A DNA stretch of 45,125 nucleotides, from contig JALFXV010000109.1 in NCBI GenBank assembly GCA_022786545.1, positions 1-45,125 of the forward strand, written 5' to 3'. Positions 17,089 through 29,466 of the stretch are shown piece by piece; position 1 is the stretch's first letter; every line of letters starts with the position of its first letter. This stretch comes from Selenomonadaceae bacterium (GTDB lineage: Bacteria > Bacillota > Negativicutes > Selenomonadales > Selenomonadaceae). The notes beneath the pieces were generated by a model. That model had not been told where the DNA came from. It searched no databases and saw only the letters and a program-made list of their open reading frames with translations. The position numbers and the translations under genes were made by a program.

Positions 17089-18555
17089 TTAGAGGTAGGT
17101 TTCCCCAAGCTGCTGCAATATATGAAGTGTTTCTTTGCGTGAATAGACAAGACGGCTGTTCTGGATGTATTCCAAGAAGCTGTAAAAAGCATGCAGCAGG
17201 CTTGGCTCGTTGAGAGTCAGGGAGAATGCCATATCTCCGTCTGCATATAGGTAGAGAATAATTTGTGTAGGTGAAAGAGCTTCTACACTGAGTTCCTTTG
17301 GCAAACTGAATTTTGCCGTATCAATGATATGAGGTACCAATGTGCCTGCCTCTATGGCCTGTATCATGTTATGCAGAATACGCTTACGACTGGCTACATC
17401 CAGTGGCCTGTAGAATTGGTCAGGAATTTCTGTAATGCGGCCTGTTTTGAGGAAAAGCTCCAATCCTTCCCGGGTAAAGCAGGAATTAATGACAGTGTTT
17501 TTGGTTTTCATTACCTGGAAGTGAACTGCCATGCGCTGAAGCATTTCTGGTGAAAAATATTCCATGTTTAAATGATTCAAAATAATATCATTATCAATAA
17601 AAGGCGTCATGCAAGGCTGATAGAGAATTGTAAAAATCTGCGGACCAGGCGGAGTGCTGTTTTCTGCCATGAGGACACTTCGCATATACTGCTGGAAAGA
17701 TGTTTTTAGCGAATGGCAGATTGGCATGGTACAGGCAAGTTTCTTTTGGAAGAATGTTCTCATGAAGTTGTTCATTTCAGTATCATCGAAGAGAAGCGCC
17801 TGGCTGGCATCGGTTGAGAAGCAAAGAACATAATCGCTGGTAAGCAGCATACATGGCATGAGAGTCCATTCATTAAATACACTGGTTACATGGTCGTAAT
17901 AGCAGCGAGCCTCAAAGGCCGGGCAGGCCAAAAGGGTTGGCAGAAGCTTTTCCAGGCAACGCAGGTTGTAGCAATTTTCATCATCATTGCCTCTGTCAAA
18001 GCAAATAATATTCTGTATTTTTGCATTAGGGGCAAAGTGCGTCATGGAAGCCAGGCTTTCATACAGGTACTGATAATCTGGCTGTGCTATCAGGCAGACC
18101 TGGCCGTCGTTTTTTTGCAATTCCATCTCCAGCAGAGTTCGGACAAGCTGATTTACATGCGGTTTTTCTCTGATGATTTGCGGGGGAGCGCTCTGATTGG
18201 AAATGATGGTTTTTAAATCTAAGAACAAATTTTCGGGGGGGTGAATGGGGTTAATGGTCAGAAGGGAAGGTTTTACGCAGTCCAGGAGCAGCTGCTGAAC
18301 ATGCTGGAGCTGACGATATGCCGATTCACCACGACGGCTGATTTCATAAGCGGTCATCAGGTCATCTGTATCTGATGGGGAGAGCAGGAGCGTGCGGGCA
18401 ACGGCCATCACTACATTCTTATTGGTAGGAATGCGGTCTCCTTTCATCATCCTGTGTATCATAGTGCGTTCTACACCAGAGGTAATAGCTACCGAGTAGA
18501 TTGTCTGACCACTGTTTTCAATATAGTATTTTAATCTTTTGGCAAATACTGACAT
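17089..18555 (-). CDS. XRE-type helix-turn-helix regulator with large unknown C-terminal domain
   Basis: 488 residues. The first 60 form a lambda-repressor-like HTH (FAKRLKYYIENSGQTIYSVA, then SGVERTMIHRMMKGDRIPT), followed by a helical linker and about 400 residues that I cannot assign; they contain scattered Cys and aromatic residues and no enzyme motif. ATG 18555 follows AAGGATGG; an upstream TTG is possible. It is transcribed away from the secreted-protein cluster, with a shared 256-base promoter region, so it is a candidate regulator of that cluster. A minus-strand TTGCAC-18-TATAAT promoter precedes it. Confidence 0.75.
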   Translation of the reverse strand: MSVFAKRLKYYIENSGQTIYSVAITSGVERTMIHRMMKGDRIPTNKNVVMAVARTLLLSPSDTDDLMTAYEISRRGESAYRQLQHVQQLLLDCVKPSLLTINPIHPPENLFLDLKTIISNQSAPPQIIREKPHVNQLVRTLLEMELQKNDGQVCLIAQPDYQYLYESLASMTHFAPNAKIQNIICFDRGNDDENCYNLRCLEKLLPTLLACPAFEARCYYDHVTSVFNEWTLMPCMLLTSDYVLCFSTDASQALLFDDTEMNNFMRTFFQKKLACTMPICHSLKTSFQQYMRSVLMAENSTPPGPQIFTILYQPCMTPFIDNDIILNHLNMEYFSPEMLQRMAVHFQVMKTKNTVINSCFTREGLELFLKTGRITEIPDQFYRPLDVASRKRILHNMIQAIEAGTLVPHIIDTAKFSLPKELSVEALSPTQIILYLYADGDMAFSLTLNEPSLLHAFYSFLEYIQNSRLVYSRKETLHILQQLGETYL

Positions 18556-18593
18556 AATCAACCATCCTTTTCTACATGGAATGTTCTAAGTAA

Positions 18594-18703
18594 ATTATAT
18601 ACATTCTTTGCCAGCAAGTGCAACGAATTGCATGAAAAACACCTGAAAAAACCTTGTCACACTATTTGTCACATATTGAGAAAGCGGTTTTTAGGGGTAT
18701 AAT
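18594..18703. promoter_or_regulatory. Divergent promoter region with direct repeats
   Basis: Minus strand: TTGCAC (18618-18623), 18 bases, TATAAT (18594-18599), for the XRE gene. Plus strand: TTGAGA (18676-18681), 16 bases, TATAAT (18698-18703), for the secreted cluster. Between them TTGTCAC occurs at 18654 and 18666, a 12-base direct repeat just before the plus-strand -35, a plausible operator. Confidence 0.55.
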
Positions 18704-18811
18704 ATAAAATGTGTAGGAAGTTGCGACTATTTTGATGATATGCTCAATTTCATGCATAAGAGCAAAATATTTCTTAATTTAGAGGAATTTGGGGCGAATG
18801 GGGTGGAAGTT

Positions 18812-19990
18812 ATGTGTAATATATTGGTGAATTTTAAGAGAAAAGCTATAAAACGATTAAGATATTTTGTAGCAGTAGCTGCTATAGCGGTGTTATGCAG
18901 TTCAACTATTCTGTCAGTGGCACAGGCTGCGGATATTCATGGATATCCGACAGTGGCGGTGATGCAGTTTGGTAATAAGGCCATTACCAGCCAGGGATTG
19001 CGGGCGTATGATTTTGACTCGGCATCCGAATATGCTATTTATCAGTTGCTGGCCTCCGGCTGGTTTGATTTGGTGGATTATGAGCAGTTGGGAAATATTG
19101 CTAAAATGCATGAGGTAAATATGTCTGGCATGGTTGACCAGAGTACAGCAGTGCAGCTGGGAAAGTTCGCCGGAGCACAGTTCATGGTAGTGGGGAATGT
19201 CACAGGATTGACTACCAAGCAATCAGGAATTGATTATCAGCATGGCAAAAAGGGTGGTGCTGGTGTTGCTATTCGTACGGTTATTGCCAATGTTGCTATT
19301 CGTATTGTAGATATAGAAACCGGGAAAATTGTAGGTGCTGGTCTTGGCAAGGGAGAATCAACATCATCAAGTGTAGAAATTGTTTTTAAGAAGTATAGAA
19401 AACCGAAAAATATTGTCAATGCAGATATTGACCCATATCTGATTGGCAGTACTACCAACAACAGTGACATAAACACCGATAGCGATGTAAGTGAGGACAG
19501 CGGTCTTAGTGAAATTGGCAATGATACAGAGGACAATAGCCAGAACGATTATGAAAGCATGGAGTCTGCTGAGGGAATATCCGAGGATGAATCCTTGAGT
19601 ACAGGGGATAACGGCTTTGATGAAAATAATACTGATAACGGAACATATAATGTATCAATGGATATCGGTGGTACTTTGATAGATAATAATTTATTAACTC
19701 AATTAGCTGATAACAGTTCAATGGCTCATTTAGTAGATGATGAAAATGGCAGTGATTCAGAAGTATATTATAGTGATACGAATGGATATACTGATGATGT
19801 GGGCACAGAAAGCAGTTCCACTGAGGAGGAAGTGGAAAACTATAGCATAAAAATTGGTTCCCAAAGCTTTTCAGCTGTTCAGGTTCGTAACGCCATCAGC
19901 AAGGCTGTCAGAGATGCAATCTATGGTGACATGGGGCTTATGACCATGCTGAACGATGGCAAAAAGCTGAAGGTTAAAACAGGGTTCTAA
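18812..19990 (+). CDS. Secreted CsgG/TolB-like protein with a long acidic insert
   Basis: 392 residues from ATG 18812 (GGGGTGGAAG upstream); longer in-frame starts lack a site. The N terminus is basic, then hydrophobic (YFVAVAAIAVLCSSTILS) with a VAQA-ADI signal-peptidase site near residue 39. Residues 40-190 follow the CsgG-type pattern: PTVAVMQFGNK, a Q-L-x-x-G-x-F helix, GKFAGAQFMVVGNVTG and VDIETGKIVGAG. Residues about 205-343 are a low-complexity stretch of Asp, Glu, Asn and Ser. The fold then resumes with IKIGSQSFSAVQVRNAISKAV, matching the end of the gene at 22514. CsgG forms the curli pore; function here is unknown. First gene of the cluster. Confidence 0.75.
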   Translation: MCNILVNFKRKAIKRLRYFVAVAAIAVLCSSTILSVAQAADIHGYPTVAVMQFGNKAITSQGLRAYDFDSASEYAIYQLLASGWFDLVDYEQLGNIAKMHEVNMSGMVDQSTAVQLGKFAGAQFMVVGNVTGLTTKQSGIDYQHGKKGGAGVAIRTVIANVAIRIVDIETGKIVGAGLGKGESTSSSVEIVFKKYRKPKNIVNADIDPYLIGSTTNNSDINTDSDVSEDSGLSEIGNDTEDNSQNDYESMESAEGISEDESLSTGDNGFDENNTDNGTYNVSMDIGGTLIDNNLLTQLADNSSMAHLVDDENGSDSEVYYSDTNGYTDDVGTESSSTEEEVENYSIKIGSQSFSAVQVRNAISKAVRDAIYGDMGLMTMLNDGKKLKVKTGF

Positions 19991-20005
19991 GAAAGGATGT
20001 TATTT

Positions 20006-20827
20006 ATGAAAAGAAAGATCGCTTACGTGATATTGGCATCAAGCATTTTATTTGGCAGCAGTACATCATGGGCAGATCAGGCAAAGGCTGATGAGTACAG
20101 GCAGATTTTTGCTTCCGGGCATTATTATCTGGAATATAAGGAAAGCGGCATCAAGAAAACGCTGGCAATTCAGGATGGAATAAGGATGTCTTATAAGCAG
20201 AGCTTTAACGGTGGATTTAATCCATTATCACTGTTTGTGCCATTTGCCCTATTTGGTGGCGGAGGTGTAACTGTTATTCCTGATGCCTACTACGAAGCTG
20301 GAAAATATTATCAGTTTTTTGAAAAGGACAAGGCACAGATGGCAACAGAGCAGGAATTAAAGGATCCGCAAATTGATCCAACAGAAAATTGGTCAACCGT
20401 AAAGTCGCGCCTTGCCTTGCCGGAAGCCTTCAGGATGTTTGCAGGCGGTACGGACAGCTTTGATGGGAGCACCAGTGGCGTGTTTGATTTTGCAGAAAGC
20501 TATCCGGGGGATGGGCAGGAAAAACTTCCGTATGACAAATATGTGCGGCCAGTCAGGAACAAAGGCGGAAAGGTGATTTTTGAATATCAATACTATGTTT
20601 ATTATAAGGATGGCAATATAAGCAAAATTCAGTGTATGTTGCAAAAACCAGGCAAGAAGGCAGAAAATGTGCGTGAGTATACCAGTATCAAGATAAGCTC
20701 TGATATTCCTAAAAATCGGATAACTTTGCCTAAGGGAAGCAAAATTTTTAAGCCGGGCATGGGGGATATGGATGATCTGCTAGATATACCGGTTCCAATG
20801 CATACAGTAGGGGAGGAAACAAAATAA
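20006..20827 (+). CDS. Secreted protein of unknown function (YRQI-type paralogue 1)
   Basis: 273 residues from ATG 20006 with GAAAGGATG upstream. A clear signal peptide ends at SWA-D near residue 23. The mature protein opens ADEYRQIFASGHYYLEY and later has YYEAGKYYQFFEKDKAQMA, then EQELKDP. Both stretches recur in the N-terminal half of the gene at 26229, and the opening resembles the gene at 20827. No known domain or enzyme motif was recognised; it looks beta-rich and periplasmic. Its stop shares one base with the start of the next gene (TAATG), so the two are coupled. Confidence 0.7.
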   Translation: MKRKIAYVILASSILFGSSTSWADQAKADEYRQIFASGHYYLEYKESGIKKTLAIQDGIRMSYKQSFNGGFNPLSLFVPFALFGGGGVTVIPDAYYEAGKYYQFFEKDKAQMATEQELKDPQIDPTENWSTVKSRLALPEAFRMFAGGTDSFDGSTSGVFDFAESYPGDGQEKLPYDKYVRPVRNKGGKVIFEYQYYVYYKDGNISKIQCMLQKPGKKAENVREYTSIKISSDIPKNRITLPKGSKIFKPGMGDMDDLLDIPVPMHTVGEETK

Positions 20828-21648
20828 TGAAATTTAATATTTTTAGAAATATGCTGTTTGCGGGCATAATAGCATGTGTGGCAGGTATTGTGCAGCCTGC
20901 TCTGGCAGCTGATAATCTTGATACATATCGCGATTTATTGCAGAAGCACACCTATACCATTAATTTTGAGTCGATTACGCCTGAGCCGCGGCAGACGGAA
21001 CGCGACAAGGTACACATGCGCAACAAGGTTGAATTTGCCGCGTCAGAAATCAGCGATTTTACTAATCGCCCTATGAAGTGCATAGTAGTAGCCTCGGGAG
21101 ATAACCGCTATGTTGAAGCTGATGCAGGTACGGGATTGGCTACTTGTCAGCTGGTTAAAGGCAATGAAACTTTTAATTTCACTAAGTCTGTCAATGCTGC
21201 AGGGGAAGTTACTTATTATGGGGATAAGAAAGGTTCTGTTACGGCAGAGGCAACGGATAGTGCTTATCAGGATATATATGGCCAGGGTATGGGAGCCAGT
21301 GATATAAGCAGATTGATGAATGCGATTTTGCCAGATGAAAGCCTGCCAGAGGATGCGCCCCATTATCAGAAAATTGGTTCAGGATGGTTGCCGGATGGGA
21401 AAAACTATATAGATTATCGTGGTGATTTTCCAGGCAGTATTGAAGTAATTCGCTACTATTTTGACCAATACGCTTTAGTCAAGATAGCATCTGGAATTTA
21501 TACGCTGAATGAAAATGGAGAAGTGGCAGATGGGCGTCGCTGCATTGTGAAGATTACCAAGTTTGTGCCTGTGGCAGATGAAAATTATTTGAAGCTGCCA
21601 GAAGGATTGAAGGATAATACCAAGCGCAAGAAGGAGGGGGAAAAGTAA
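20827..21648 (+). CDS. Secreted protein of unknown function (paralogue 2)
   Basis: 273 residues with a signal peptide ending near ALA-ADN (residue 28). The mature part starts LDTYRDLLQKHTYTINFES, the same helix-then-strand opening as the neighbouring 20006 product, and has a similar length and a late KITKFVPVADENYLKLPEG segment comparable to the SIKISSDIPKNRITLPKGS of that neighbour. This suggests an old tandem duplication. The tail is Lys/Glu-rich. No domain recognised; expected in the periplasm. Start codon overlaps the previous stop. Confidence 0.7.
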   Translation: MKFNIFRNMLFAGIIACVAGIVQPALAADNLDTYRDLLQKHTYTINFESITPEPRQTERDKVHMRNKVEFAASEISDFTNRPMKCIVVASGDNRYVEADAGTGLATCQLVKGNETFNFTKSVNAAGEVTYYGDKKGSVTAEATDSAYQDIYGQGMGASDISRLMNAILPDESLPEDAPHYQKIGSGWLPDGKNYIDYRGDFPGSIEVIRYYFDQYALVKIASGIYTLNENGEVADGRRCIVKITKFVPVADENYLKLPEGLKDNTKRKKEGEK

Positions 21649-21649
21649 T

Positions 21650-22477
21650 ATGAAACGGAAAATGGCAGCATTTTTTGCATCTCTGGCGATAATGTCAGGC
21701 ATTTGCGGCATAGCAGAACATGCTGAGGCGGCAGGGGAAAGCAATACATGTATAATGTTGAAGTTTGAAGATGATACGCGCTTTGATAAAGTAGATACAG
21801 CAGGCACATTATCAGATTTGATTATGGAAAAGCTGATGAATAGCGGCAGTTTTTCTTTTAAGGAAACCAAGCCTTTGGATAAAAATATGGAAAAGGCTTT
21901 ATACAATGAAAGAGTAGCGGAGTTTCGCAATGCTAGGACAGCAATAAATTCAGGGAACTATAATGTGCTGTTTGAAGGTGCTGGCTTTGCAGAAAATAAG
22001 GCACAAAGCATTGCTTCCGCCAGGCTAGGGCAGATAGTAAGCCCTGCTATAACGCAAGCCATTGGTACGGAAAATAATGCGGAATATCTGATACAGGGAA
22101 CAATTCTTAATTTGGGAACTGGTAACTGGGTAGATCCAGAATGGGCAATTGCTTCAATGGCAAAAAGCTATTTTGCTCCTGGCCTCGGGATGGCACTTGG
22201 CCCGGCAAGTACTTTACTGAATGTAGATACGCAGAAGACTGGTATTGGAGTACAGGCGGATGTGCGTGTAATTAAGGCATCTACTGGCGAAGTTATTTGG
22301 CAGGAGCGTCTGACAGGCAGGGACACGCAGACGAAGTATAATTTTGGCGGCATGATCAGTATTGGCAGTGATAAGGTCAATAATGAGATGTATTTTAAGG
22401 CTGTCAATGATGCCGCACAAATTATAGCCGATACTTTGATTGGCGCTGCTAATGAAGGAAAGCTGTTTGTGAAGTAA
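21650..22477 (+). CDS. Secreted CsgG/TolB-like protein
   Basis: 275 residues, starting one base after the previous stop codon, with a GGAGGGGGAAAAG site. Signal peptide to about residue 27 (AEA-AGE). The mature domain reads NTCIMLKFEDDTRF, TLSDLIMEKLMNSGSF, EYLIQGTILNLGTGNW, then VQADVRVIKASTGEVIWQ and a terminal helix KAVNDAAQIIADTLIG. This is the strand-helix order of CsgG-type or TolB N-terminal domains, which assemble at the outer membrane. It is not a lipoprotein, as no lipobox Cys is seen. Function unknown. Confidence 0.7.
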   Translation: MKRKMAAFFASLAIMSGICGIAEHAEAAGESNTCIMLKFEDDTRFDKVDTAGTLSDLIMEKLMNSGSFSFKETKPLDKNMEKALYNERVAEFRNARTAINSGNYNVLFEGAGFAENKAQSIASARLGQIVSPAITQAIGTENNAEYLIQGTILNLGTGNWVDPEWAIASMAKSYFAPGLGMALGPASTLLNVDTQKTGIGVQADVRVIKASTGEVIWQERLTGRDTQTKYNFGGMISIGSDKVNNEMYFKAVNDAAQIIADTLIGAANEGKLFVK

Positions 22478-22513
22478 CGTTTGCATTAGCGTTTTGGCAA
22501 GGGATGGTTGAAG

Positions 22514-23161
22514 ATGAAAAATTGGCTGTTTTTGATAATGGCATTTATGCTTATGCCAGTGCATTTATGTAGTGCAGAAAAATTTGATATAAGCACGCCG
22601 ATTGCTGTTATGGATTTTGGTGACCGTCCAGATGCTTCTCCGGCGGAAATCAAGGCACACAAGGCTGGGGAAGCATCAAGTGAGTATTTAATTGCGGCAA
22701 TGCTGGGAAAAGGTTTTATCATCCAGGATAAAGACATGGCAATGCTGCAATTAAATGCAGAGGGCATAAGCACCACAGGTATCATAGATCCTGACAGCGC
22801 AGCGAAAATAGGCGAAAGGCTGGGGGTACGATACATTCTTTATGGCAATGTGGCTAATGTAAGCCTAAGTGATATAAGTGGCGGCCTGAATTTTTCTCCT
22901 GGAGTGCTGGGTGTCGACATTTGTACAGTGAAAGCACATATTGTGGCAAGAGTTATGGATGTGCAAACTGGAGATATTGTAATGATGATGAAGGGAGATG
23001 GTTCATCTAAAAGCAGCTATGTAAAAGCTGGTGCAAAAATTCTTAATCAGGAGCAGATTATAACTATCGGTACAACAAGGGTTACTTTGGACAGTGTGCA
23101 CAACGCTATACAAAAAGCCAGTGTCGATGTTGTTAATAAGATGGTTGCTAAGTGTAAGTGA
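22514..23161 (+). CDS. Secreted CsgG/TolB-like protein, short form
   Basis: 215 residues from ATG 22514 (GGGATGG seven bases upstream). Signal peptide ends near CSA-EKF. It is a compact version of the 18812 product: IAVMDFGDR, SEYLIAAMLGKGFIIQDK, TTGIIDPDSAAKIGERLGVR, YILYGNVANVSLS, VMDVQTGDIVMM and ITIGTTRVTLDSVHNAIQKA line up in order with that protein, but the acidic stretch is replaced by about 20 residues. This gives an internal reference for what the unmodified fold looks like. Signal-peptide Cys is not in a convincing lipobox. Confidence 0.72.
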   Translation: MKNWLFLIMAFMLMPVHLCSAEKFDISTPIAVMDFGDRPDASPAEIKAHKAGEASSEYLIAAMLGKGFIIQDKDMAMLQLNAEGISTTGIIDPDSAAKIGERLGVRYILYGNVANVSLSDISGGLNFSPGVLGVDICTVKAHIVARVMDVQTGDIVMMMKGDGSSKSSYVKAGAKILNQEQIITIGTTRVTLDSVHNAIQKASVDVVNKMVAKCK

Positions 23162-23229
23162 TGCGGGAAGGAGGAGTTTTGGTAATATTGAGTTAGTGTA
23201 ATATGTTTATAGAAAGGAGTATTGTTATT

Positions 23230-24882
23230 ATGGTTAAGTGCGTATTTAGTTTTCTGCTTGCGTTGATATGCCTTGTGACAGGTTTGCCAGCAGAAGCTGC
23301 AAGAAATGATAATTATCCAACGCCGCTGTTCTGTTATGTTTTGTCTAATGGACGTGTAACTACTTATGTTCAGAATAGCACTGCCCGTGTAAGTGGTTAC
23401 ATTGATGGTGGTGTAGATCAGGTACAGTTGAATAATATTTATCCAAGCGATAATTGGGTGTATGGTGGTTATCCAACTAGCAGAGGCAGAAAATGGGCTT
23501 GGTTCAGAGTAAGTGATGTTATATATGATTATAACTATCAAATGAAAAAGACTAAAGCTTTGAGAACTGCACCGGCTTATCGGAAAAAGGAACGTGGACA
23601 GACTATTGGTTCTGTTTATGCTAATGATGTAATATATGTGGTTTCCGAGTATGGAGATTTGGCACAGATTATTTACCCGATTAGTGGCGGTTATAAGCTG
23701 GGATGGGTTGAAAAAAGTGTAGTAGACTGGGGCAGCAGACCAGCACCGCAGCCTGGCACAAATTATCCTACTGGTAATATTGTCAATGTATCCAACGGAA
23801 CATATAAAATTGCATCGGCTGCAAATTTAAATATGGTTTTGGATCTTGATAATGGCCGTAATGAAAATGGAGCTAACCTTCATTTGTGGCAGTGGGTAGG
23901 TACTCCACAGCAGAAATTTGTAATTGAAAATTGTGGAAATGGCTATTATTCCTTGCGTCCATCATATACTGACAAAAAACTTGATGGATTGGGTTCTAAA
24001 CCTAATAATGGTACCAATGTAGGTTTGTGGACCTCTAATGGTTCAAATGAGCAGAGATGGCGTTTTATAGATGCAGGTAATGGCTATGTGTACATTGAGT
24101 CAAAAATGAAGCCAGGCTTATCTTTGGATTGTCAGGGCGGCAGGGTTCAGAATGGTGTAAATGTGCAGGTGTGGATGCGAGGCAATGTGCCTTGGAATAA
24201 GTGGAAGTTAGAGCGTCTTGATACTCAGCCAGGACAAAGTGCTGAAAGATATGTAGTGTCTACAAATGGTGCAACGCTGGCTCTTAGAAGCGGTCCAGGT
24301 ACTAATTATGGTATAAAGGCTAGGATGCCTAGAGGTAGCGTAGTTGAAGTATACTCGATTAGTAATGGCTGGGCAAATCTTAGTTACAATGGTATGAGTG
24401 GATATGCTGCATCATCATATTTGATCAAAAAAGGGGATAATGAACAAGGGAATGATTGGGACAGGTATGTTGGTAGAATGCCTGGGAATTTGAATTTAAA
24501 TTCTTCTTATTATCAGGCGCGTTCTAGTAATAATCCATTCGCAAAGTCATATAGGGATAGTAATGGAAGATATCATAGCACTAACTGTACATGGTATGCT
24601 TATGGTAGATTTTATGAAGTAAATGGGCAAAAGCTTGGAGTCACGGGTATGCCATATAGATGGTCAGGTCAAGCTAGAAATAACGGTTTTTCAATAGGTA
24701 CATCTCCACGTTCAAAATCTGTAGCTGTTGCGGAAAAACATGTTATGTTCGTAGAAAATGTATCTAATGGATATGTTTATTTTACGGAGGCGAATTATGG
24801 TGATGATTTTGTGGTAAAGAAGATGTCTATAGCTGAATTTACTAACAAAAGGAAGATTCAGAGTTATATCTACGCAAAATAA
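23230..24882 (+). CDS. Secreted CHAP-domain cell-wall hydrolase with SH3 and ricin-type lectin domains
   Basis: 550 residues from ATG 23230 (AAAGGAG upstream). Order: signal peptide (1-23, AEA-A); an N-terminal domain of a type often found ahead of cell-wall enzymes (about 30-100); an SH3-like domain (about 105-165); a ricin-type beta-trefoil (about 183-330) with repeated QxW-like motifs such as NLHLWQWVG, NVGLWTSNG and NVQVWMRGN; a bacterial SH3 (about 340-400, LRSGPGTNYGIK); and a CHAP domain (about 430-550) with catalytic Cys453 (NCTWYA) and His504. CHAP enzymes cut peptidoglycan peptides or glycan-peptide bonds. It may open the wall for the cluster's assembly or act on other cells. Confidence 0.85.
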   Translation: MVKCVFSFLLALICLVTGLPAEAARNDNYPTPLFCYVLSNGRVTTYVQNSTARVSGYIDGGVDQVQLNNIYPSDNWVYGGYPTSRGRKWAWFRVSDVIYDYNYQMKKTKALRTAPAYRKKERGQTIGSVYANDVIYVVSEYGDLAQIIYPISGGYKLGWVEKSVVDWGSRPAPQPGTNYPTGNIVNVSNGTYKIASAANLNMVLDLDNGRNENGANLHLWQWVGTPQQKFVIENCGNGYYSLRPSYTDKKLDGLGSKPNNGTNVGLWTSNGSNEQRWRFIDAGNGYVYIESKMKPGLSLDCQGGRVQNGVNVQVWMRGNVPWNKWKLERLDTQPGQSAERYVVSTNGATLALRSGPGTNYGIKARMPRGSVVEVYSISNGWANLSYNGMSGYAASSYLIKKGDNEQGNDWDRYVGRMPGNLNLNSSYYQARSSNNPFAKSYRDSNGRYHSTNCTWYAYGRFYEVNGQKLGVTGMPYRWSGQARNNGFSIGTSPRSKSVAVAEKHVMFVENVSNGYVYFTEANYGDDFVVKKMSIAEFTNKRKIQSYIYAK

Positions 24883-25002
24883 TAAGGTTTTATGAACTGA
24901 AATAGAAATGATAAATAATTTTGAGCTAGTATATTTTGTTAGTAATTAGAATGTTCAATGTGTCAATTTTTTTATGTTGTTTATTGGGCTGATTTTGCAT
25001 TA

Positions 25003-25035
25003 GTGCTGGTCTGTAATGGTATTATAGACCAGCAC
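25003..25035 (+). terminator. Hairpin between the CHAP gene and the next gene
   Basis: GTGCTGGTCTGTAAT (25003-25017) pairs with ATTATAGACCAGCAC (25021-25035) with one G-U pair and a three-base loop. No T run follows, so it may be a weak terminator or an RNA-stabilising element before the gene at 25055. Confidence 0.5.
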
Positions 25036-25054
25036 CATATTTACAGGGGGTTGT

Positions 25055-26215
25055 ATGAAAAAATTCATAGTAATGACTTGCTTGCTTTTATGGACTAATA
25101 TCTCCTGTGCTCAGCAAGTCACGGTAACAGGTGTAGGCGATAACAAGGACGTTGCAATAAAAGATGCTTTTCGCAATGCGATAGAGCAGGTCGTTGGTAT
25201 TTATGTAAATAGCAGTACAGTGGTGTCTAATTCCCAGGTAGAATTGGATAAGATTTATGCCAATTCAGAAGGGTATATCACTGATTTTAAGGTCCTCAGG
25301 ACGGCTTATAAAGGAGAGGGCTGCCATGTTCAGGTGCTTGTAGATGTTGATACAGAGCCTAGCTCTAAGCTGCTTAGTGATTTGAAGCTTACATATATGC
25401 TGGATAATCCACGTATAATGGTAAAGGTCTCTGGTGGTCGATATGCTGGGATTTGTGAGGCGGCACTAGTTAGTAAGTTGCGTGAAATGGGGCTTGAGGT
25501 AGTGGCTGCTAAAAGCAGCACAACAAACAGTATGCAAAATAGTACTGAGTCTGTAGTTGATGTAAATAATGATATGATAGGTATGGATATCTTATCCGAA
25601 GATGCAGAACTCGCCAATCAAAATCCTCAGGATGAAGCAACAGGAATGGATTCTGGTATTGAAATATATGATGGTCAGGACATAGAAGAGTTTTCGGAGG
25701 AGAATAGTTTGGATACTGACTTATCAGATGAGGGGATATCTGGTGAAAATCAGGTAGCTATACCTGATGATAATTACAGCGATATGCAAAATAATAATGT
25801 GTCAAATGAAGTTTCCATAATAAATACTGCTTCTAATGAAAATGGGAGCATGCAAGCATTATCTGATTGGGGAATCAATGAATTAGAGGCTGGATTGGGC
25901 GATTATACAGTTAGATGCATAATTTCCGAAAGCAGTATGAATGTTACTTTGCCTAATTTCTATGTAGCTGGTAAAAATACTAAAACTACTAACAATGCTA
26001 CAGGTTTGTATAAGGGCATAGTAAATGCCAATGTGGATGTAGTGAAAAACAGCACAAAGTCAGTTGTTCAGCAGTTTTATTTAACTGATACTAAGATATA
26101 CAACAGTGCAGATATAGCCAAGCAGATGGCGGCTGAAGGTATTAGCCAGCAAATCGCAAATAAGGTGGCTGAAATTTTTTCGCATCATGCTACATTAGTA
26201 ACAGTAAACAGCTAG
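25055..26215 (+). CDS. Secreted FlgT-N/LPP20-like protein with acidic insert
   Basis: 386 residues with a signal peptide ending at SCA-QQ (residue 19). Residues 20-115 read as the FlgT N-terminal/LPP20 type: VTVTGVGDNKDVAIKDAFRN, AIEQVVGIYVNSSTVVSN, then SEGYITDFKVL and VQVLVDVD. In Vibrio, FlgT and LPP20-type FlgP build the rings around the flagellar basal body. Residues about 153-265 are an Asp/Glu/Asn/Ser-rich low-complexity stretch; the fold resumes at SDWGINELEAGL and ends in a helical tail. AGGGGG lies upstream of ATG 25055. Not a lipoprotein in appearance (the Cys is followed by AQQ). Confidence 0.72.
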   Translation: MKKFIVMTCLLLWTNISCAQQVTVTGVGDNKDVAIKDAFRNAIEQVVGIYVNSSTVVSNSQVELDKIYANSEGYITDFKVLRTAYKGEGCHVQVLVDVDTEPSSKLLSDLKLTYMLDNPRIMVKVSGGRYAGICEAALVSKLREMGLEVVAAKSSTTNSMQNSTESVVDVNNDMIGMDILSEDAELANQNPQDEATGMDSGIEIYDGQDIEEFSEENSLDTDLSDEGISGENQVAIPDDNYSDMQNNNVSNEVSIINTASNENGSMQALSDWGINELEAGLGDYTVRCIISESSMNVTLPNFYVAGKNTKTTNNATGLYKGIVNANVDVVKNSTKSVVQQFYLTDTKIYNSADIAKQMAAEGISQQIANKVAEIFSHHATLVTVNS

Positions 26216-26228
26216 GAGAAAGGACGAG

Positions 26229-27623
26229 GTGAGCGTCTTGAAAAAACGAATAATATTTTTATTAACGTTGCTTTGGATCTTATTAACAGCTACTCTTGTC
26301 CATGCTGAACAGCCGGAAGCAGAAAAGTACAGGCAGATTATTGCAAACGGAAACTATTACATTGAGTACGATTTTAGCATCGATGAACAAAAAGAGGCTA
26401 TACTGGATAAAATAGGAGAAAACCGTGACGTTATTGGAGCTGTAATAGCGGGAGCTGAGCGAGGCGGCTTGCTGGCATCTCAAAATGGGAAGCGTATGAA
26501 AAAGATGATTATCAGCCATGGTATTTTTGGGAACAGCATTATTCCTGAAATATATTATGCTGATCACAAATATTATCTTTTCTCAGGAGAAGATAAAGCT
26601 ATCATGGCTACGGAAGAGGAATTAAAGAATCCGCGTATAACTTATAATGGGGATTGGGAACAGCATAGGGCAAAGCTGAATATACCTGAGCCGTTAATAC
26701 CATTTGCTCCTAAAGGAACGTATGATGATGCAATTCCTGAACCGAAGTTTGTGTTATCAGCAAAAAAATTATTTAGTATTATGATTGCCTTGCTTATGCT
26801 GTCAATTTCCAGCGTGGCTATGGCTGCCACTGATGTCAGTGATGGTGTAATCCGGGTTACCGGTATTGGTGCTCCTGGGCAGCCTCCTTATTTGGGCTTT
26901 ATTGCTGCCAGGGCGGATGCCCAGAGACAGCTTGCGGCTGAAATAAATGGCGTGCAGGTGGACTCAGAGACTACTGTAGAGTTGCTGATGGTTCAGAATG
27001 ATACCATCAAGACAAAGGTTTCCGGCCTTGTAAAGGGAGCCCGGGTTGTGCAGCAGGGGACTAATGATTATGGTTACTTTGTTGTCATGGAAATGCCTGT
27101 TTTTGGTGCTAATTCTATTGCTTCTGCTGTTATTCCGCAGGTTCAGCAGCAGAACTTCCCGCAGCCGGCGGATGTGGCTCCGTCTGTTTCTACTACTGTG
27201 ATTGTCAACAATAATGTAGGTACTGTACCAGCGCCAGCACCTGCACCTGCTGTAAATCCTAATCAGGCAACTGTTGGCAACATGTATGGTGCTACCGGCC
27301 AGTATACCGGCCTGATTGTCGATTGCAGCGGCCTGGGCTTGCAGACTGCTATGGCTCCTGCTGTTTATACTGATGGCAAGAAGGTTGTTTATGGCCTTGA
27401 GCATTTCTCTCATGACCAGGTTATCAATCGTGGCTATGTAGGTTATTCCACCAGCACTACTGCCGGTGTTCAGCGTGCAGGCAGCAATCCTATGGTTATC
27501 AAGGCTCAGAGCGTTGAGCATTTCTTTAACCCGGTAATTTCTAAGGAAGATGCTGCAAAGATTTTGGCTGAAAACCAGATGAATGGTTTCTTGTCTGCCG
27601 GTAATGTGGTTTTTGTAAAGTAA
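26229..27623 (+). CDS. In-frame fusion: truncated YRQI-type protein joined to an LPP20-like protein
   Basis: 464 residues from GTG 26229 (TTG 26238 possible). Residues 1-26 are a signal peptide; 30-170 match the first part of the 20006 product (EKYRQIIANGNYYIEY, DHKYYLF-EDKAIMATEEELKNP) but stop short. Residues 177-199 are a second complete signal sequence, LFSIMIALLMLSISSVAMA, buried in the chain, followed by an LPP20-like domain (VIRVTGIGAPGQPPYLGFIA, ADAQRQLAAEINGVQV, then SGLVKGARVV; 205-293), a Pro/Ala linker and a C-terminal domain with YTGLIVDCSGLGLQ. The downstream half is GC-richer. It looks like a deletion that joined two genes in frame. How the internal signal behaves is unknown. 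Confidence 0.78.
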   Translation: MSVLKKRIIFLLTLLWILLTATLVHAEQPEAEKYRQIIANGNYYIEYDFSIDEQKEAILDKIGENRDVIGAVIAGAERGGLLASQNGKRMKKMIISHGIFGNSIIPEIYYADHKYYLFSGEDKAIMATEEELKNPRITYNGDWEQHRAKLNIPEPLIPFAPKGTYDDAIPEPKFVLSAKKLFSIMIALLMLSISSVAMAATDVSDGVIRVTGIGAPGQPPYLGFIAARADAQRQLAAEINGVQVDSETTVELLMVQNDTIKTKVSGLVKGARVVQQGTNDYGYFVVMEMPVFGANSIASAVIPQVQQQNFPQPADVAPSVSTTVIVNNNVGTVPAPAPAPAVNPNQATVGNMYGATGQYTGLIVDCSGLGLQTAMAPAVYTDGKKVVYGLEHFSHDQVINRGYVGYSTSTTAGVQRAGSNPMVIKAQSVEHFFNPVISKEDAAKILAENQMNGFLSAGNVVFVK

Positions 27624-27639
27624 CTCCGGGGTGAGTATG

Positions 27640-28248
27640 ATGAAAAAATTTGTTGCCGGTATTTGGGGGATTGTTATAGCAGGCATCATTGCGATGCCTG
27701 CTTGTCAGGCTGCTGAAGAATTACCTGCGGCCTCCGAGGTGCAGCAAGCAACAGAAAAACAGGAAAAGGATGCTGCTGGCAGTGCCGTGCAAACTGGCCA
27801 TGAGCAAGGGCAAAATGTGGCAATAAATGCAGTTGCCCAGCAGCAGGCGAGCCAGATAGCAAATGTGGCAAAGTCGGTTGCCGTGCAACAGGGGGCAGAA
27901 GTCAAGCAGCCTGCCGGTGTGACTGCGAGTTCTATATCGCTGGTTGAGGCATGGGCAAGGCGGGAACCGGCCATGCTGACCATGAAAAGTGGCGGTAAGG
28001 ATTATGAAACCGCTAAATCGCTGGCAGAAAAGAAGGCTGTGGCAAAGGCGATATTTTTGTTTACTGAAGCGGATGTAGCTCAGGACTATGATGTGGCCGT
28101 TTATCATCTGGCAGATAATTATGGCAAGTATATCCTCCTGTTTGAAGAAACAAATGGGCAGGAAGCTGGTTCAGGTGTCTTGCTTTTATCCCGTGTGGTG
28201 CTGAAAAAAGATATTTTGCTTGCGGATATGGAACAGTACAAGAAATAA
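27640..28248 (+). CDS. Secreted protein of unknown function
   Basis: 202 residues; ATG 27640 is favoured by the CGGGGTGA site, with ATG 27637 and GTG 27631 possible. Signal peptide ends near QAA-EEL. Residues about 25-95 are low-complexity Gln/Ala/Glu/Val, likely a flexible linker. The last 100 residues form a compact domain (SLVEAWARREPAMLTMKSGG, ETAKSLAEKKAVAKAIFLF, then NYGKYILLFEETNG and a final VVLKKDILLADM). No family recognised. It follows the fusion gene by 16 bases and precedes the Sel1 gene by 13, so all three are likely one transcript. Confidence 0.7.
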   Translation: MKKFVAGIWGIVIAGIIAMPACQAAEELPAASEVQQATEKQEKDAAGSAVQTGHEQGQNVAINAVAQQQASQIANVAKSVAVQQGAEVKQPAGVTASSISLVEAWARREPAMLTMKSGGKDYETAKSLAEKKAVAKAIFLFTEADVAQDYDVAVYHLADNYGKYILLFEETNGQEAGSGVLLLSRVVLKKDILLADMEQYKK

Positions 28249-28261
28249 GGAAAGGGACGGC

Positions 28262-29377
28262 ATGAAGAAAAGCGATGTTTTGCTTGTTGCTCTGATGACC
28301 GCATTGTCTGTCGGAGTAGCAGGAAATGTTCCTGTGTATGCCAATGGAGGAACCAACACACCTGTGGCAGAGACTATAGATGGTGTTGAGGCTGATTTGC
28401 AGGATTTTGAAGTTGAGATTGTAGTTGATTGGCTGGAATCAAAGGTAAATACCCCTGCCGAAATAGCTGCAAAGTACAAGAAACCTAATAACAGATACAA
28501 TATTTTGCAGTCTGCTATCAGGCGCGGGGTTCCTGTAATTTCTGAACTTACGGAGGCGTTTTATGGCAGCACTAATGGTGTTGTGCCGAAGGAAAGCAGC
28601 CGGGACGTGATTAATAATCCGGCAGTGACGGTTCCGTCTGCTCCAGGAACTGCGTCTGTTGCTGTGCAGAAGGCTCCGGCAGTGCCTGTTTCTCCAGTTG
28701 CTAATGCAGCCGTTCAGATTAAGGTATATCCTGGTGAGGCTGAGTATCAGCAGGGGCTGGAATATGAAAAGCAGAAGAATGATGCTGAGGCTTTTTATTA
28801 TTTTAAGCTTGCTGCTGATAAATTGCATCCGATGGCTGCTGACAAGGTGGCATGGATGTATTATCATGGTAATGGTGCCACTGAGAATAAAGACAATGCA
28901 CTTGCTTATTTCAAGATTTCTGCTAATGGCGGTTATGTAAAAGGCGAGTATGATTATGGCTGGATTCTGGTGCGGGAATATTCCGATAAGGATGGAGTTG
29001 TCTGGCTGAAGAAGGCCGCTGAACATAAATCTCCGGATGCCTGCTGGGATTTAGCGGTTGGCTATACACCGGGGCGCAATCTATTAGGAAACTGGCGGCT
29101 GTCTGGCTGTCTGGTGAGGGACAAAACTACCGCCATTAACTATTACAGGATGGCTCGTGATACTGATACAGCGGCAGGGTATTACTATTATGGTTACATG
29201 TATTATATGGGAGAGCTTACCCAAAGGAATTATGCCGAAGCTGTTAAGTGGTTTACCAAGTCCTATGATATGGGCTATCAGGAGGCGAAGGACAAGCTGA
29301 TAGACATATACAGAAATGGTGGCTATGGTGTAAATAAGGATACGGACATGGTGAATAAGCTAAAAGGCAGGTTTTAA
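28262..29377 (+). CDS. Secreted Sel1-repeat protein
   Basis: 371 residues from ATG 28262 with GGAAAGGGA upstream. Signal peptide ends around VYA-NGG. A Pro/Val/Ala-rich linker covers about 120-165. From about 170 to the end there are Sel1-like (TPR-related) helical repeats, for example AEAFYYFKLAADKLHPMAAD, VAWMYYHGNGATENKDNALA, AAGYYYYGYMYYMGELTQRN and AVKWFTKSYDMGYQEAKDK. Sel1 repeats bind partner proteins or help assemble complexes, so it may be the scaffold of the cluster. Last gene of the run; a new promoter follows. Confidence 0.85.
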   Translation: MKKSDVLLVALMTALSVGVAGNVPVYANGGTNTPVAETIDGVEADLQDFEVEIVVDWLESKVNTPAEIAAKYKKPNNRYNILQSAIRRGVPVISELTEAFYGSTNGVVPKESSRDVINNPAVTVPSAPGTASVAVQKAPAVPVSPVANAAVQIKVYPGEAEYQQGLEYEKQKNDAEAFYYFKLAADKLHPMAADKVAWMYYHGNGATENKDNALAYFKISANGGYVKGEYDYGWILVREYSDKDGVVWLKKAAEHKSPDACWDLAVGYTPGRNLLGNWRLSGCLVRDKTTAINYYRMARDTDTAAGYYYYGYMYYMGELTQRNYAEAVKWFTKSYDMGYQEAKDKLIDIYRNGGYGVNKDTDMVNKLKGRF

Positions 29378-29429
29378 ACATTGGCATAATGCTGCTGCTG
29401 GAGGGAGCGGATATCTGGATAACTTTTAT

Positions 29430-29466
29430 AACATATATTGACAATATATGTTAAGTATGTTATACT
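29430..29466 (+). promoter_or_regulatory. Promoter overlapped by a perfect palindrome, ahead of the glycyl-radical genes
   Basis: TTGACA (29438-29443), 17 bases, TATACT (29461-29466): a near-consensus promoter. AACATATATTG (29430-29440) and CAATATATGTT (29442-29452) are perfect 11-base arms around a single A, covering the -35. This is a strong operator candidate for a dimeric repressor. Confidence 0.7.

Follow-up and report, generated by a model that had tools for sequence, protein, structure and literature searches.

What might ten consecutive genes for exported proteins, several of them akin to parts of the curli pore and of flagellar rings, build together in a diderm Firmicute? The question is raised by a locus of a Selenomonadaceae bacterium (assembly GCA_022786545.1, contig JALFXV010000109.1, positions 1 to 45,125 of the forward strand; this whole stretch of 45,125 nucleotides is hereafter called the window), where ten open reading frames (ORFs) in the same direction, A to J, occupy positions 18812-29377 and all code for exported proteins. 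They are separated by at most 41 nt, with the exception of the 172 nt between F and G. As judged by a pattern test and by reading of the sequence, all ten N-termini combine a basic n-region, a hydrophobic core and an AxA-type signal-peptidase I site, whereas most of the neighbouring housekeeping genes, taken as controls, lack such an export signal. The initial annotation of this stretch had indeed described ten consecutive codirectional genes, each with an export signal; its view of the ten as one unit stands in part, as a seven-gene core (A, B, C, D, E, G and H) is retained in relatives, I and J are not conserved, and F belongs to a set of cargo genes that can replace one another. The reading proposed here, to which we give a probability of about 0.42, is that of a conserved envelope module of diderm Firmicutes that has spread horizontally: A, D, E, G and H would form a ring scaffold while B and C would act as carriers or chaperones of a ligand or of the exported cargo.

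The core was delineated by seeking homologues of D and B in 100 related genomes and fetching their neighbourhoods, to which 13 further loci from contigs of named organisms were added, with the genes being mapped by family profiles (related genomes and loci bear G and L numbers below). In the 22 distinct loci on which the gene-order counts are based, the core order is G-A-B-C-D-E-(cargo)-H, i.e. one FlgT_N/CsgG-like protein (G), three members of the CsgG superfamily (A, D and E), one protein joining an FlgP/LPP20 part to a domain like the second domain (D2) of Tp0624 (H), and the pair formed by B and C. B and C are adjacent in 21 loci, C and D in at least 17, D and E in at least 13, and G-A and A-B in 11 each, these counts being lower bounds because contig ends cut several loci and overlapping antisense ORFs hid some genes. 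Besides, 148 of the 149 core genes share their strand, and the median gaps within the G-A-B-C-D-E run range from -4 to +3.5 nt. In several genomes the B-C-D set is present twice or three times (L048, L050, L056 and L060), and several clusters are present in G054. The genes therefore keep company both in Selenomonadaceae and in a second family of Negativicutes, and homologues of B, C and D are not scattered singly in relatives, an outcome that the initial annotation had considered as speaking against its proposal.

Three of the core proteins are CsgG/TolB-like, as first described. A (18812..19990, + strand, with an alternative start at 18740) and E (22508..23161, +) match Pfam CsgG above the cut-off of 20.8 bits (1.9e-14 and 53.9 bits for A, 1.4e-7 and 31.5 bits for E), their family profile matches the solved CsgG structure at 3e-5, and loops equivalent to the two amphipathic transmembrane beta-hairpins that make up the CsgG barrel are present in both by alignment. 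D (21650..22477, +), the best conserved gene of the core, lies just under the Pfam CsgG cut-off, but hhalign relates it to A and E at 98.8%. As the sequence profiles of B, C and D gave nothing useful against solved structures, structure prediction was needed, and the AlphaFold2 model of D (predicted local distance difference test score, pLDDT, of 69, with two low loops) matches the middle domain of FlgT (3w1e; Z 15.8, 3.9 Å over 152 residues), followed by the FlgT-like chain of the LPHT ring (8z5n_0, Z 13.8), PelC (13.1), CsgG (12.0) and TolB (11.1). In addition, A has an acidic insert that follows the last CsgG strand and precedes the C-terminal helix, at a position where the A homologue of G089 carries Dockerin_1. 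In the same loop, a CsgG-family protein encoded in L041 (12345-13886, - strand) holds Dockerin type I repeats, and no cohesin was found in that genome.

The same superfamily includes LpoB, which raises the possibility that A, D and E are regulators of peptidoglycan synthesis or remodelling, i.e. LpoB/TolB-type periplasmic activators working with the adjacent wall hydrolases. A matches Pfam LpoB over the cut-off (3.6e-9), D structurally matches LpoB and TolB domains, and CHAP, M23 and NlpC/P60 hydrolases are found within the cluster. Nevertheless, A scores higher against CsgG than against LpoB and stays far below the cut-off of the NCBIfam LpoB equivalog (37.3 versus 110.55 bits), the loci that were read showed no penicillin-binding protein, and B, C, G and H would be left unexplained, so that this role is rather unlikely.

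The CsgG assignments would also fit a curli-like channel, in which A and/or E would form an outer-membrane pore secreting unfolded substrates such as repeat-rich or lectin cargo, while D and G would serve as a cap or adaptor on the periplasmic side. Pfam and profiles against the Protein Data Bank (PDB) both assign A and E to CsgG, D has the CsgG fold, and the clusters of relatives hold secreted repeat-rich, RTX and autotransporter proteins. However, curli combine CsgG with CsgE and CsgF, while the present cluster has three CsgG-type paralogues together with FlgT-, FlgP- and LolA-type components, and no Pfam match to curlin, CsgE or CsgF was obtained among the ten window proteins, the rest of the genome not having been searched for them. 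The attachment of CsgG to the outer membrane requires N-terminal lipidation (PMC3173608), but the N-terminal lipidated cysteine is absent here despite the presence of the CsgG domain, and a lipobox is lacking in A, E, H and their homologues according to a pattern test, which is not a trained predictor such as SignalP. In addition, the cargo consists of folded multidomain enzymes. A curli-like channel is thus unlikely, and the pore formation in the outer membrane which the initial annotation associated with such proteins is left unsupported or unproven by A, E and H devoid of a lipobox.

The two LPP20/FlgT-type proteins first noticed are G and H, and profile and structure together place CsgG, FlgT_N and LPP20 folds in the cluster. 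G (25055..26215, +) is an exported FlgT-like protein made of an FlgT_N/LPP20 N-terminal domain and a CsgG-like middle part with an acidic insert similar to that of A; it lacks a C-terminal domain found in seven relatives. The window copy matches LPP20 weakly (0.006), but FlgT_N is matched by four of the eight members of its family (best 2e-5), the family profile matches chain 9hmf_C at 2.8e-5 and CsgG weakly (0.4), and hhalign relates its middle part to A and E at 88%. H (26229..27623, +) is an LPP20 protein by Pfam, as are seven of the eight members of its family, and its profile matches 9hmf_C at 7e-14, chains named FlgP at 1.8e-5 to 2e-4, and the second domain of Tp0624 at 1e-8. Chain 9hmf_C was deposited as a putative lipoprotein, and we take it to be Campylobacter FlgP from its length, not from its record. 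The match to Treponema pallidum Tp0624 involves the C-terminal part of H and residues 139-259, but H is devoid of the OmpA-like D3 domain, and its N-terminal half is best matched by FlgP-type chains. The D1-D2 part of Tp0624 has been described as a functional unit occurring in various bacteria (PMC5104382).

In the window, H is also unusual in that a truncated paralogue of B (26229 to about 26750) is fused in frame to the LPP20/FlgP-like and Tp0624-D2-like core protein (26751-27623), whereas relatives hold the latter as a separate gene; a GTG at 26751 offers a possible restart that would give the LPP20 protein a signal sequence of its own. Moreover, the window G sits after F and not upstream of A as in the core order. 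The window copy therefore looks locally rearranged, unless the assembly joined two genes at H.

In this context, an obvious comparison is the Vibrio and Campylobacter H-ring or basal disk, made of FlgO, FlgP and FlgT in Vibrio (PMC7990780), with which the cluster shares an FlgT_N-type G, an FlgP-like LPP20 protein H and TolB/CsgG-fold proteins A, D and E, all exported. Unlike the H-ring, it contains no flagellar genes and its H has no lipobox, and it adds B and C, extra CsgG-type paralogues, wall-active cargo and the D2 domain on H; in other words, FlgT_N and FlgP-type LPP20 features are present while the flagellum, represented by FlgI, and the lipoprotein features of FlgO and FlgP are lacking. 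FlgI was found in 84 of the 100 relatives, and the core in nine of these 84 and in two of the 16 FlgI-negative ones. In the second family, all six carriers tested are devoid of FlgI, four of these genomes being at least 89% complete and one 100%. The cluster is therefore not a flagellar accessory. That it would be an accessory ring encoded away from the flagellar cluster, with A and E standing for FlgO beside the FlgT-like G and the FlgP-like H, is very improbable in view of these six carriers and of the absence of the core from 75 of the 84 FlgI-positive relatives. A stand-alone H-type gene (LPP20 + D2; L068 5646-6797, - strand, in G042) lies about 5 kb from flgI and beside an MreB-like gene, so that some members of the H family may serve the flagellum.

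The part of the core without counterpart in these rings is the pair formed by B (19997..20827, +) and C (20827..21648, +), two exported proteins that the initial annotation had left unclassed and that are without any Pfam match, PF03548 (LolA) included. The AlphaFold2 model of C (pLDDT 82) predicts a LolA/LolB/RseB/LprG-type fold: its best match is the LolA-like 4mxt (Z 11.7, 4.2 Å over 174 residues), P. gingivalis LolA follows with Z 10.1, and nearly all of the top structure matches fall within this superfamily. B is distantly related to C, as seen from an hhalign match of 95% and from weak cross-hits, and therefore probably adopts a LolA-type fold as well. Both resemble this superfamily in periplasmic export and in fold (predicted for C, by distant homology for B), but differ from it by an identity of about 10% and by their pairing within an operon that also contains CsgG-type genes; for C, the model shows the LolA fold while the sequence stays outside the LolA family. 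Negativicutes have been reported as devoid of LolA and LolB (PMC5007114, PMC10665443), and the surveys that find neither there doubt the existence of outer-membrane lipoproteins in this class (PMC5007114, PMC5491611, PMC10665443). As PF03548 was also without a match across nine genomes tested, the LolA-type fold predicted for C is new information in Negativicutes.

These observations might suggest a Lol-like delivery of lipids or lipoproteins to the outer membrane, with C and B in the roles of LolA and LolB, both of which are reportedly missing from this clade (PMC5007114); the fold of the C model and the lack of Pfam LolA in the nine genomes would fit such a route. Yet C is present in only 50 of 380 Negativicutes genomes (13%), i.e. 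in 15 of 102 genera and two families, and a patchy presence of this kind rules out a housekeeping Lol role. Furthermore, the cluster genes that were read include no LolCDE-type transporter (the remainder of the genome was not searched), and A, E and H are without a lipoprotein signal. A Lol-like route is accordingly decidedly unlikely.

The patchy distribution also bears on how the cluster is inherited. The first carrier family is the window's own, Selenomonadaceae, according to named relatives, which include the named strain Selenomonas ruminantium HD4 (L064); the second (f15) most probably corresponds to Acidaminococcaceae, since those of its close matches that bear names are records of Phascolarctobacterium and of Acidaminococcaceae. 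In 398 genomes drawn from the phylum, D gives only weak CsgG-type matches beyond the window's own genome. The window D is 57% identical to that of G089, from the other family, and 39% to that of G001, from the same genus, whereas RadA shows the reverse, with 51% for G089 and 95% for G001; inheritance is thus not simply vertical. In the tree of D, Phascolarctobacterium is nested within Selenomonadaceae sequences with a support of 96/95. Horizontal transfer of the cluster would be the simplest reading of these sequence comparisons, and ancient paralogy with loss is a possible alternative because some genomes hold several copies. A phage or plasmid origin was considered and set aside, as no match was obtained in phage, plasmid or viral collections.

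What the cluster might handle is indicated by its variable part. F (23203..24882, +) encodes an exported protein with a RicinB lectin, SH3_3 and CHAP, all three by Pfam, and is a putative peptidoglycan hydrolase, in line with the hydrolase with a sugar-binding domain first reported. In relatives, other wall-active or lectin genes occupy its slot, and the exported proteins encoded between E and H or beside the core comprise RicinB lectins with SH3_3 and dockerin, an M23 peptidase with dockerin, NlpC/P60-type enzymes, a CAP protein, an RTX protein, an autotransporter beta-domain protein and large repeat proteins without a Pfam match. Zinc-ribbon DUF805 membrane proteins recur in the same region (L051 14010-15305; L048 2466-3872), being the only clearly non-periplasmic members seen. 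In L047 (7206-8801, - strand), the slot is taken by a tandem pair of near-identical exported proteins that begin with MLKRKILAAMAFVFT and are of unknown family, and similar-looking proteins are present in L048 and L067. A dockerin-cohesin scaffold was also envisaged and rejected: dockerins occur on cargo and on one A homologue, yet no Pfam cohesin was found in eight carriers. Finally, I (27631..28248, +) encodes an exported protein of unknown fold matched among related loci only in L050 (5e-8), and J (28262..29377, +) is the Sel1-repeat protein first noticed, confirmed by Pfam but without homologue among those related loci that were searched. The conserved core thus excludes F, I and J.

Coming back to the envelope module, the proposed sequence of events would start with Sec export of the cluster proteins. 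The CsgG-superfamily members A, D and E, with G as an FlgT-like adaptor and the FlgP-like H, would then assemble a periplasmic ring that lies beneath the outer membrane or within it and resembles the FlgO/FlgP/FlgT H-ring minus the flagellum. B and C would be carriers or chaperones that load this scaffold with a lipid, acyl or amphipathic ligand or with the cargo. The products of the interchangeable neighbours (CHAP, M23 and NlpC/P60 hydrolases, ricin-type lectins, dockerin, RTX and autotransporter proteins) would be what is finally set into the wall or onto the cell surface. Homo-oligomeric rings are known for most of the solved relatives of A, D, E and H, among them CsgG, PelC and the FlgT/FlgP LPHT ring (8z5n). 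The observations establish the export signals, the folds, the gene order, the independence from flagella and the variability of the cargo, whereas ring assembly, a location at the outer membrane, a ligand for B and C and the handling of cargo are suggested because solved relatives behave in this way, CsgG and PelC in their rings, FlgP and FlgT in the LPHT ring, and LolA-type proteins in lipid binding.

Several observations nevertheless weigh against such a module. CsgG and FlgP are lipoproteins, whereas A, E and H are without a lipobox; this missing lipidation, the putative nature of the membrane hairpins and the breadth of functions among LolA-type folds raise the gravest doubts. The seven core proteins need not form one complex, because smaller sets (G-A-E-x-x-H in L072, C-A-G-H in L073) occur and H often stands alone, in 35 of 60 relatives at E 1e-12. 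The carrier role of B and C is a guess, as LolA-type folds are also those of sensors (RseB) and enzymes (VioE), and the tie between B and C spans only the last, C-terminal 48 aligned columns. Besides, the cargo genes could simply be co-regulated. An envelope-spanning assembly, as put forward in the initial annotation, is an inference only. The fuller proposal of an undescribed envelope machine, in which a flagellum-independent CsgG/FlgT/FlgP-type ring and a dedicated LolA-type carrier pair would deliver the wall hydrolases and lectins encoded in the operon, or display them, in a clade supposed to lack LolA and LolB, is possible but on balance doubtful.

The sequences flanking the cluster contain few recognizable elements. 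Upstream of A, a divergent intergenic region holds a sigma-70-like promoter match (TTGAGA-N16-TATAAT, 18676..18703, +), which is a consensus match only, agreeing at 11 of 12 positions, and no Rfam element was found in the region. The gene divergent from A (17089-18561, - strand) encodes 490 residues, of which the N-terminus resembles by eye a small helix-turn-helix regulator, and small XRE-type regulators lie close to several related clusters. A common regulator was nonetheless discarded as a candidate, as the divergent gene lacks a Pfam match and is not significantly similar to a gene of equal size next to an H paralogue. Directly after J, an AT-rich imperfect inverted repeat (29419-29463, arms of 22 nt, 82%) is present, and a promoter-like TTGACA-N17-TATACT at 29438 precedes a glycyl-radical activase gene.

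As the initial annotation had supposed, no described system with this content was found: the open literature, with preprints and most subscription journals outside the scope, gave no description of this combination and nothing that joins CsgG with LPP20, with FlgT or with Selenomonas, and the one paper obtained on CsgG and Negativicutes looks unrelated, judging from its title. What was first noticed is here extended by the LolA-type fold predicted for C, by its relative B, and by a distribution that is patchy and independent of flagella. Taken together, these data bear on the routes by which proteins and lipids arrive at the outer membrane in Negativicutes, since one transferable unit here combines LolA-type proteins with FlgP/CsgG-type ring proteins that are not lipidated and with interchangeable wall-active cargo. 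If the proposed assembly is true, the building blocks of the H-ring and of curli can do an envelope task without flagellum or curli, and the copy of Selenomonas ruminantium HD4 offers a tractable entry to it. The cluster may thus be an unrecognised cell-envelope machine of some rumen and gut relatives of Selenomonas.

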